Assembly (NCBI GenBank): GCA_025451235.1
Contig: JANWKT010000024.1
Location: 186,001 to 250,000 of the forward strand
Reading direction: 5' to 3'
DNA from: Flavobacteriales bacterium
Lineage (GTDB): Bacteria > Bacteroidota > Bacteroidia > CAIKAF01
Length of the DNA stretch: 64,000 bases
Shown: in pieces, positions 60,580 through 63,775 of the stretch
Position numbering within the stretch: position 1 is the first letter of the stretch
Layout: every line of letters begins with the position of its first letter
Notes under the pieces: generated by a model
Databases searched by the model: none
What the model saw: the letters and a program-made list of their open reading frames with translations, nothing else
Told to the model about the DNA's origin: nothing
Position numbers and translations under genes: made by a program

Positions 60580-60951
60580 GTGAAAAAACTACTTATCATA
60601 TCATTTGCTTTTATATCTCCAATTATCATCAAAACTCAAACTGGTACAGCGCCTTCGTGTAGATTTGAGTTAAAGGCAGATAAGGAAATACTTGAGAAAT
60701 ATTACCCGGTATCAAGGTATAGCTTTAGACCTCTTTCGAAAAATCTGGCAGATAAAATAGGTATGAAACTTCGACTAAGCAGATATGAGAGTTTGTATGT
60801 TCAAAAAGATTCTTTATGCAATCGATTTAAGGATATAGTAGTTTATAAGAATTTATATTTAAATAGCATAGAACTTGAACTCGACTCCATGCCCTATAAT
60901 ATGGTAGGTCTGTTGATCAGGTGCACATTTCAGCAAATAAAAAAGGATTAA
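60580..60951 (+). CDS. Small exported protein with GTG start
   Basis: The 123-residue protein starts at GTG with a signal peptide (VKKLLIISFAFISPIIIKTQ). The mature part contains three Cys (PSCRFELK, SLCNRF, IRCTFQ) and a basic character. I do not recognise a family. Its TAA overlaps the ATG of the next gene by one base (TAATG), so translation of the AraC-type regulator is coupled to it, which suggests a shared role. Confidence 0.75.
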   Translation: MKKLLIISFAFISPIIIKTQTGTAPSCRFELKADKEILEKYYPVSRYSFRPLSKNLADKIGMKLRLSRYESLYVQKDSLCNRFKDIVVYKNLYLNSIELELDSMPYNMVGLLIRCTFQQIKKD

Positions 60952-61520
60952 TGCCTCAACTTCTCATCAAAAATATGGTTTGTCACCGTTGTGTATTGTC
61001 GGTTGAACAAATACTCCAACAATTAAATATTCCATATACTGAAGTAACCATTGGAGAAGTACAACTTAGCAAAGAACTCACGGCCTCAGAGAAAAAAGGG
61101 TTGATAGAAAAACTCCAGTCCATTGGTTTCGAGCTGATCGGCAGCCATCAAAGTGGGCTCATTGAGAAGATCAAGCATTGGATAATCCTAAAAGCCCGAA
61201 ATGAAACAACCGAAAAAGAAAAGAAGTGGAAATTGTCGGAATACCTCATTCACCATATCCCCAACGAGTATACGTATTTGAGCAGCTTGTTTTCGGAAGT
61301 AGAAGGAAGGACCATAGAAAACTATTTTATTGAACAAAGGATTGAAAAAGTAAAAGAGTTATTGGTGTATAACCAGTTGAACTTATCTGAAATTGCGGTG
61401 GAGATGGACTATAGTTCCGTTGCACATTTATCGGCCCAGTTCAAAAAAATAACAGGACTTACTCCTTCTCATTTCAAGTCGATCGGAGACCAAAAGAGGA
61501 AGTCGATCGATCAGGTGTAG
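60951..61520 (+). CDS. AraC family regulator with N-terminal heavy-metal-associated-like domain
   Basis: The 189-residue protein has an N-terminal HMA-like domain (about residues 1-65) with the Cys-x-x-Cys metal motif in LIKNMVCHRCVLSVEQIL (Cys11, Cys14), a linker, and an AraC-type double helix-turn-helix (about 90-180, LNLSEIAVEMDYSSVAHLSAQFKKITGLTPSHFK). Only the DNA-binding half of an AraC protein is present. It probably senses a soft metal such as Cu or Zn. The start at ATG 60951 overlaps the preceding gene stop; an upstream in-frame frame exists but starts inside that gene. A metallothionein-like gene lies 310 bases downstream. Confidence 0.9.
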   Translation: MPQLLIKNMVCHRCVLSVEQILQQLNIPYTEVTIGEVQLSKELTASEKKGLIEKLQSIGFELIGSHQSGLIEKIKHWIILKARNETTEKEKKWKLSEYLIHHIPNEYTYLSSLFSEVEGRTIENYFIEQRIEKVKELLVYNQLNLSEIAVEMDYSSVAHLSAQFKKITGLTPSHFKSIGDQKRKSIDQV

Positions 61521-61546
61521 ATAACCGATCCAAGCGGAGTATTTGC

Positions 61547-61715
61547 TTCGTACCTACGGCACTCTATGTTTTATACCCTGCATACTTTTACCAATCTATC
61601 ATCCCCGTCCGAACGGTAGGGCCTGGCGGGCCTACGGGATTCATATGAGCTCCGTAGGAGCGGCATATTGGTAAAATAAACAGTGTAGATTTTGTTGGAG
61701 TGCCGTAGGTACGAA
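61547..61715. repeat. 169-bp REPIN-like element with 18-bp perfect inverted repeats
   Basis: TTCGTACCTACGGCACTC (61547-61564) is repeated inverted at 61698-61715, and a second inner pair TTTTACCAAT (61586-61595) returns as ATTGGTAAAA (61667-61676). A GC-rich middle (GTAGGGCCTGGCGGGCCTAC) can form a third hairpin. Nested pairing and a GTAGGTACGAAAT end recall dispersed repeats of Bacteroidota genomes; no transposase is nearby, so it would be non-autonomous. Confidence 0.75.
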
Positions 61716-61794
61716 ATATTGGATTTTTCAAATCATCCCAAAATCCTATAAAACCTTCCCAAAGTTGTATAACGCCCCTCAGGCAAGGTCACCG

Positions 61795-61802
61795 TACCTT
61801 TG
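61795..61802 (+). promoter_or_regulatory. -7 promoter element TACCTTTG of the metallothionein-like gene
   Basis: This fits TAnnTTTG and lies 27 bases before the ATG at 61830. A TTG at 61765-61767 is somewhat too far upstream for an ideal -33 box, so activation by a regulator is plausible. Confidence 0.5.
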
Positions 61803-61829
61803 TATCAACAATTAATAAAACTATAAATC

Positions 61830-61976
61830 ATGAAAACAAGATCAAAAATCAGAGATCCGAAGGATGAAAAACCAATATGTGGTTGTGGTAATCCGAAATG
61901 TAAATGTACCAATTGTACCTGCGGTGATGGATGCCCTGGGCAAGGTTGTACCTGTGGATGCGATTGCTGTAAATAA
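61830..61976 (+). CDS. Small Cys-rich metallothionein-like protein
   Basis: The 48-residue frame starts at ATG 61830 and ends at TAA 61974-61976. It has a basic N-terminus (MKTRSKIRDPKDEKP) and then twelve Cys in 31 residues (positions 17, 19, 24, 26, 29, 31, 35, 40, 42, 44, 46, 47), mostly as Cys-x-Cys, with no aromatic residue or His. That composition is the hallmark of metallothioneins that bind Cu(I), Zn or Cd in thiolate clusters. A -7 promoter box precedes it, and a perfect terminator follows 1 base after the stop. It lies downstream of a metal-type AraC regulator, its likely controller. The exact metal is unknown. Confidence 0.82.
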   Translation: MKTRSKIRDPKDEKPICGCGNPKCKCTNCTCGDGCPGQGCTCGCDCCK

Positions 61977-61977
61977 A

Positions 61978-62001
61978 AAAGGGCCTCTTCGGAGGCCCTT
62001 T
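61978..62001. terminator. Perfect terminator hairpin with TTCG loop
   Basis: AAAGGGCCTC pairs perfectly with GAGGCCCTTT around a TTCG tetraloop. It lies between the metallothionein-like gene and the convergent aspS, and can end transcription from both sides. Confidence 0.88.
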
Positions 62002-62017: not shown

Positions 62018-63775
62018 CTAAAAATTTTCATTCTTCACGATGATTCCCAATTCGTTCAGTTGAGCCTCATCAATAACGCTAGGCGTATCGATCATCACAT
62101 CTTTGCCTGCATTGTTTTTTGGGAAGGCAATAAAATCACGGATAGACTCAACCCCTCCCATCAAAGCACATAGCCGATCGAAACCAAAAGCAATTCCTCC
62201 ATGTGGTGGAGCACCGAATTCGAAAGCATTCATCAAAAATCCGAATTTTTCCTGGGCATCTTCCTTGGTAAAGCCTAAAACTTCAAAAACTTTGGCTTGC
62301 AGGTTTTTATTGAAGATCCGTATAGATCCACCTGCCACTTCTGTTCCATTTAATACCAGGTCATAAGCATTGGCTTTTACTTTACCCAATTCATTGTTCA
62401 TCATGGCTTCAATATCGTCGGCCTTAGGTGAAGTAAATGGATGGTGCATGGCAAACCAACGACCATCCTCTTCAATATATTCGAACATAGGAAAATCCAA
62501 TACCCACAATGGTTTAAAATCATCTTTATTTCTTAAACCTAATTGGTTACCTAATTCCAGGCGCAGTTCATTCAATTGCTTCCGGGTCTTCTCCGTTTCA
62601 CCGGCCATCACCAATATCAGGTCCCCTGGTTCTGCATTTAACTGGCGTGCCCAATCTTTTAAATGGTCTTCGTTATAAAACTTATCTACGGATGATTTAA
62701 TGCTTCCATCTTCATTTACCCTGGCATATACTAATCCTTTTGCGCCAACCTGGGGTCGTTTAACGAATTCTGTTAATTCATCCAGTTGTTTACGGGTATA
62801 GGTAGCAGCGCCTTTGGCACAAATACCCACCACGATCTCCGCCTGGTCGAATACCGGAAATCCTTTTCCTTTGGCTATCTCGGTGATCTCCTCAAATTTC
62901 ATCCCGAAACGGATATCCGGTTTATCGGATCCATAATATTTCATGGCATCATCATAACTCATGCGGGGCACCTCCCCTATTTCAACTCCTCTTACTTCCT
63001 TCAGTACATGTTTGAGCAGACCTTCAAAAGTTTGTAATATATCCTCTCGTTCCACAAAAGCCATTTCACAATCGATCTGGGTAAACTCAGGCTGACGATC
63101 TGCACGCAGGTCTTCATCCCTGAAGCAACGAACAATTTGAAAATACCGATCATACCCACTAACCATGAGCAATTGCTTAAAGGTTTGCGGTGATTGTGGC
63201 AATGCATAAAATTCACCATGGTGTACACGACTGGGCACCACAAAATCACGAGCCCCCTCGGGAGTAGATTTAATCAGGAAAGGGGTTTCTATTTCCATAA
63301 AGCCCAATCCACTTAAATATTTCCTGGTTTCAAGGGCTGCCTGGTGGCGCAACATTAAATTTTGCTGCAAAGGTTTGCGACGCAGGTCCAAGTAACGGTA
63401 TTTCATCCGCAACTCTTCTCCCCCATCTGTGTTTTCTTCAATGGTAAAAGGAGGCGTATCAGCAGGATTGAGGATATGCAATTCAGAACAGATGATCTCA
63501 ATATCACCCGTCTCCATTTTATTATTTTTTGAGGAACGTTCGGCCACCGTTCCTTTCACCATGATCACGAATTCACGGCCTAGTTTCCGGGCTTGTTCAG
63601 CCAGAGCCGCATTGGTTTCCAGGTTGAAGGCCAATTGGGTGATCCCATACCGGTCGCGAAGGTCCACAAAGGTCATTCCCCCCAAATCACGGCCTTTTTG
63701 CACCCATCCACTCAGGGTAACGGCTTGTCCAACATGACTCATTCTTAATTCTCCGCAGGTATGTGTTCTGTACAT
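62018..63775 (-). CDS. aspS: Aspartate--tRNA ligase
   Basis: The 585-residue class II synthetase has the N-terminal OB-fold anticodon domain ([19 protein letters not shown]), class II motif 2 ([21 protein letters not shown]), the bacterial GAD insertion domain (about 280-420) and motif 3 with [15 protein letters not shown] near the C-terminus. The length is normal for the bacterial type. It charges tRNA(Asp); because GatC is also encoded nearby, the organism may use the indirect route for Asn-tRNA, which would need a non-discriminating form, but that cannot be told by eye. A -7 box lies 53 bases upstream. Confidence 0.98.

Follow-up and report, generated by a model that had tools for sequence, protein, structure and literature searches.

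The window analyzed here is a stretch of 64,000 nt from contig JANWKT010000024.1 of a Flavobacteriales bacterium. Its last kilobases hold the following features:

60580-60951, plus strand: exported protein of 123 aa with 3 Cys, the stop of which overlaps the regulator start (TAATG)
60951-61520, plus strand: HMA-AraC regulator of 189 aa, with an HMA-like domain at residues ~1-66 and an AraC double-HTH domain at residues ~95-180
60981-60992, plus strand: CHRC metal-site motif (Cys11 and Cys14 of the regulator), within MVCHRC near the N terminus (MxCxxC site)
61547-61715, unstranded: long hairpin of 169 bp with 18-bp perfect inverted termini, separating the regulator from the operator
61737-61772, plus strand: predicted operator, a 36-bp direct repeat with a 21-bp period, CCCAAAATTNTRTAA-n6-CCCAAAGTnnTGTAA
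61795-61802, plus strand: -7 promoter box TACCTTTG, 22 nt past the operator
61830-61976, plus strand: metallothionein-like gene of 48 aa with 12 Cys (25%), no His, and no aromatic residue
61978-62001, unstranded: terminator-like hairpin common to the peptide gene and the convergent aspartyl-tRNA synthetase gene (62018-63775, minus strand)

A first-pass annotation had claimed a 48-residue frame with twelve Cys and its own -7 box, and both are present at these positions. The next Cys-richest of the 465 ORFs of 30 to 110 aa in the window contains 6 Cys, and a level of 12 or more Cys at 25% Cys or more was not reached in any of 60 dinucleotide shuffles, which argues that the frame is not a chance occurrence. 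The frame is present once in the genome, and its composition is that of the metallothionein superfamily (<100 aa, ~15 to 30% Cys, CxC/CxxC pairs, few aromatics). The perfect terminator described directly after its stop is only partly borne out: the hairpin itself is perfect, but a clear T-run lies on the minus strand, with only a short T stretch on the plus strand. At the other end of the locus, the exported protein had been described as translationally coupled to the regulator. The TAATG overlap stands, but its membership in the unit does not, as we find no credible relative of this orphan in 100 related genomes; there is also no match to it in Pfam or NCBIfam. On this sequence comparison the coupling looks private to the window genome, and the protein, rejected as a partner, is probably a neighbor rather than part of the unit.

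The peptide belongs to a family of 31- to 59-residue metallothionein-like proteins encoded at ~30 Bacteroidota loci. In a scan of related genomes with the regulator, a short Cys-rich frame was also seen behind its nearest homologue (61%, genome G029) and behind a distant one (G067). Searching with the 48-mer alone did not bring up the G029 homologue, which a three-row profile recovered, and a profile built on the window, G029, and G067 members yielded two further peptides (G240 and G122). A degenerate DNA pattern for the core returned 76 stretches from 84,980 species genomes; 28 of these encode peptides of Bacteroidota (Arenibacter, Flavobacterium, Chitinophagaceae, Segetibacter, and others), and the bulk of the remainder come from Actinobacteria, mainly mycobacteria. 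Profile and pattern searches give the Bacteroidota core as CGNPNCTCxxCxCGxxC, and four Cys are invariant in the alignment of 30 members, so that the Cys pattern, for which conservation in relatives had been proposed as a check, is kept at ~30 Bacteroidota loci. Base differences between close peptide pairs are concentrated at third codon positions, and His is absent from 26 of the 33 listed peptides. The family is rare, with 8 carriers among the 395 genomes sampled from the class; a phylum-wide profile scan, dominated by a 40-aa subtype, scored the window peptide weakly and was left out of the counts.

Comparison of 30 family members with Pfam, a search in which HMMER filters may drop weak matches, gave no match to PF02069 at an E value of ≤10. 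The best metallothionein match is that of one member to PF01439 (E = 0.042), and no member matches any Pfam model more strongly. The family has no match in NCBIfam. Weak profile matches (E values of 0.01 to 1) were discarded, those opened being unrelated Cys-containing ORFs. Spread of the peptide on plasmids was likewise set aside, with a single weak plasmid match, from Tsukamurella, where no gene is listed. Mycobacteria and their relatives (L085, L107, L086, L119, L130, and other actinobacterial loci) encode peptides with the same CDNPNCTCENCTCG core, without an HMA-AraC regulator; the core is single or duplicated there, in peptides ranging from ~36 aa with 7 Cys to 57 aa with 14 Cys.

The AraC HTH of the regulator spans residues 108 to 176 (Pfam PF12833 [HTH_18], 2.6e-15; PF00165 over the cutoff). 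For the N-terminal part, the Pfam HMA score of the window regulator alone falls below the cutoff (E = 0.24), and a profile of the regulator family matches CopA HMA domains (1p6t, E = 0.006). In the AlphaFold model (pLDDT, 88.8), the top Foldseek fold matches of the regulator are AraC-type structures, and the HMA part matches CopZ (2qif), Atx1 (2xmv), and TTHA1718 (2roe) with a TM score to the target of 0.61 to 0.68, E values of 0.09 to 0.26, and a probability of 0.99 to 1.0. The N-terminal domain is predicted to adopt a copper-chaperone-like HMA fold. The first-pass description of a Cys-x-x-Cys HMA-like domain fused to an AraC half is thus upheld, the MVCHRC motif and the AraC HTH both being found, with profile and predicted fold in agreement. 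Cys11, Arg13, and Cys14 are invariant among 21 regulators of the metallothionein-linked set. In three of the four regulator paralogues examined from the window organism's genome, the first metal-site Cys is lost and replaced by Ser.

We tabulated 33 peptide loci, 31 of them with readable upstream DNA. An HMA-AraC regulator lies directly upstream on the same strand at 24 of these 31 loci, 91 to 310 nt separating its stop from the peptide ATG; one further locus has it 843 nt upstream of the peptide, and at six none is present within the flanking DNA examined. Most of the paired loci were retrieved by peptide, DNA-pattern, or operator queries rather than via the regulator. The AraC-metallothionein pair that was to be sought in other genomes is therefore adjacent at 24 of 31 testable loci, and this comparison of gene neighborhoods shows regulator and peptide family paired across Bacteroidota. 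In the regulator tree, where HMA-MauE-linked paralogues are labeled under a broader "ATPase" grouping, one supported clade (99/90) takes in 24 of 26 peptide-linked regulators together with one regulator preceding a copper ATPase, and the peptide-linked regulators of G240 and G067 fall outside it. Since these two lie outside the main clade and six of 31 loci have no regulator, the pairing has formed or re-formed on more than one occasion.

The predicted operator consists of two 15-bp half-sites, CCCAAAATCCTATAA and CCCAAAGTTGTATAA, with 0 mismatches in the window, and its pattern found no match in 100 shuffles. The first-pass annotation had overlooked both this repeat, the key element of the locus, and the 169-bp hairpin. 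It occurs with at most 4 mismatches at 27 of 31 homologous loci, and direct half-sites ~21 bp apart near the promoter are conserved across loci. The distance from the operator end to the -7 box is 21 to 22 nt at 28 of 31 loci (one read by eye), so that both operator and fixed spacing are shown by sequence comparison to be conserved. The operator usually starts 1 to 2 nt past the regulator stop; in the window it starts 216 nt past it. It is also kept without an adjacent regulator, e.g., at L080 (0 mismatches) and L081 (1 mismatch), the latter being one of two operator-bearing peptide genes in Arenibacter catalasegens, of which the other (L114) has a regulator. Degenerate operators are seen at G067 and L137. 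In Flavobacterium soyangense (L104, 871-1324), two identical tandem metallothionein peptides, each with its own operator, lie behind one regulator.

The 169-bp hairpin has a DNA fold z-score of -7.1. A multicopy mobile element is not supported here, the genome holding a single full copy; 21 nt are common to a short palindrome at C13:149801-149824. No known RNA element was found near the peptide gene in Rfam at the gathering threshold. Viral carriage of the operator was also rejected: the single exact match in viral contigs lies inside a larger ORF, has a matrix score below those of real sites, and was judged to be chance. In genome G280 (L151 and L166-L169), tandem CCAAAAATAGTATAT repeats with a 21-bp period mimic the operator and are probably an unrelated repeat array.

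A matrix built on the metallothionein promoters outscores shuffles (P ≤ 0.01), and does so at a nearly constant position, behind all 6 CopA-linked regulators (a group in which scans covered all or part of L025 and L027/L152 and only the HMA part of L024, the others being assigned by resemblance), 6 of 7 HMA-membrane-linked regulators, and the one DUF4396-linked regulator. Behind other regulators it exceeds shuffles in only 2 of 12 cases, and the operator goes with the regulator family; the copies behind CopA-, HMA-membrane-, or DUF4396-linked regulators are weaker than the peptide-linked ones. In G071 the operator stands between the regulator and a Cu-type P1B ATPase with a CPC motif, and in G368 it precedes another Cu-type P1B ATPase with CPC. 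L034, and by resemblance L028-L033 and L045, were rejected as ATPases, since they encode HMA-MauE membrane proteins. A second operator occurs in the window organism's own genome, with the same geometry, in front of the following gene:

L179, 2623-3120 (contig C14): DUF4396 membrane protein with a His-rich N terminus

In G039 (L036), regulator, operator, and DUF4396 gene follow in a row, and this arrangement suggests a copper role for the DUF4396 protein.

The reading that we favor, with a probability of about 0.75, is a small copper-buffering circuit in which an HMA-AraC activator responding to Cu(I) induces a cytosolic metallothionein for this ion. We infer that the regulator binds the predicted operator, that it activates and does not repress, that Cu(I) is both its ligand and the inducer, and that the peptide has a buffering role. 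The regulator would act as a one-component sensor, its HMA Cys-x-x-Cys site taking Cu(I) and its AraC half binding the 36-bp direct repeat in front of the peptide gene. Because the second half-site ends ~22 nt before the -7 box, it would occupy the position of the -33 element, with the regulator acting as a class II activator. The induced 48-residue peptide, without a signal peptide, would stay in the cytosol, where its Cys-thiolate cluster would trap several Cu(I) ions; in this genome the same operator also lies ahead of the DUF4396 membrane protein. The compact metal-sensing and metal-buffering unit first proposed from gene position alone gains support from the conserved Cys pattern and the 24 of 31 regulator adjacencies.

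The metal could be another thiophilic ion, since HMA domains are found in Zn, Cd, and Hg proteins as well, and the same circuit might respond to Zn(II), Cd(II), or Hg(II), with the peptide a Zn/Cd metallothionein like SmtA. The operator-linked ATPases bear on this in both directions: fragments of them also match heavy-metal models and, more weakly, Cd models, but the copper-type models are matched strongly and the CPC motif is present. Multicopper oxidases adjoin three peptide loci (G029, G067, and G205), and known Zn-type bacterial metallothioneins use some His, whereas the peptides here mostly have none. We consider a Zn, Cd, or Hg circuit unlikely.

The same three oxidase genes could instead indicate that the peptide mainly carries Cu(I) to, or holds it in reserve for, a copper enzyme, e.g., the neighboring multicopper oxidase, rather than acting as a buffer. 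However, no oxidase adjoins the peptide gene in the window or at most other loci, and a hairpin with a T-run lies 3' of the gene at most loci (read by eye), for which reason the gene is usually alone in its own transcript. A dedicated carrier is, in our estimate, decidedly improbable. That regulator and peptide are adjacent by chance or joint transfer, the repeat being a site for some other factor, would suit the patchy distribution (8 of 395 genomes) and the six peptides without an adjacent regulator, but is hardly credible given the 24 of 31 adjacencies across several families, the constant spacing of operator and promoter, and the recurrence of this site behind related regulators that precede other metal genes.

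The copper-buffering circuit resembles the cyanobacterial SmtA/SmtB system in placing the gene of a metal-responsive regulator beside one for a small, Cys-rich protein that buffers metal. SmtB is a repressor of the ArsR type that Zn releases, whereas the regulator here is of the AraC/HMA type, probably an activator and probably responsive to Cu(I). MymT of Mycobacterium tuberculosis probably differs from our peptide in its Cys pattern and is not known to have an AraC/HMA regulator. The likeness lies in a short, Cys-rich, copper-linked peptide from an originally nonannotated frame (PMC7558416, PMC7387436). The structure of SmtA has been solved (1JJD; PMC7558416), whereas the peptide profile here matches no sequence of a solved structure in the PDB at an E value of ≤10. 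CueR (MerR type), CsoR, and CopY likewise sense cytosolic Cu(I) and control copper efflux genes; in contrast to these, an AraC-type DNA-binding domain is here fused to an HMA chaperone-like domain, with a 21-bp direct-repeat operator. Open-licence papers that we searched never name CueR, CsoR, and CopY together with an AraC-family copper sensor, and they hold no AraC-controlled bacterial metallothionein and no HMA-AraC copper sensor. SmtA/SmtB already provide an example of a metallothionein beside a metal regulator. In the libraries and literature searched we found no description of the AraC/HMA regulator, the operator, or the peptide family.

Few bacterial metallothioneins have an investigated function, namely, SmtA, MymT, and later Pseudomonas proteins (PMC7387436). 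The peptides described here extend this set by a family from another phylum that comes with its own regulator and a precisely defined predicted operator. The comparison also suggests which DNA site and which metal are likely to be recognized by a large group of HMA-AraC regulators, for which the literature searched describes no ligand.

The locus had further been described as lacking the usual efflux pump, and this holds for the draft genome of the window organism (98% complete). We found no E1-E2 (P-type) ATPase in it by a search that was positive in 14 of 14 control genomes, a CopA query returned nothing beyond an HMA-type frame of 117 aa, and the single RND protein scored far below the cutoff for heavy-metal pumps. 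The organism is a candidate for copper buffering in the absence of export by P-type ATPases. A putative Cys-rich copper reserve of another kind is also encoded in this genome:

L177, 1809-2123 (contig C19): Csp-like copper storage protein (DUF326, 104 aa, 19 Cys)

Csp proteins are folded four-helix bundles, in contrast to the short, CxC-rich, metallothionein-type chain described here. We tentatively propose, at somewhat less than even odds, that HMA-AraC proteins form a separate class of Bacteroidota copper sensors, which use one 21-bp direct-repeat operator and control either CopA export or a metallothionein, and that cytosolic copper tolerance in the window organism rests on the metallothionein and storage proteins rather than on export.

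Near the Csp-like gene, at 2983-3564 of L177, lies a regulator paralogue in which the first metal-site Cys is lost, followed by a long sensor-like protein.
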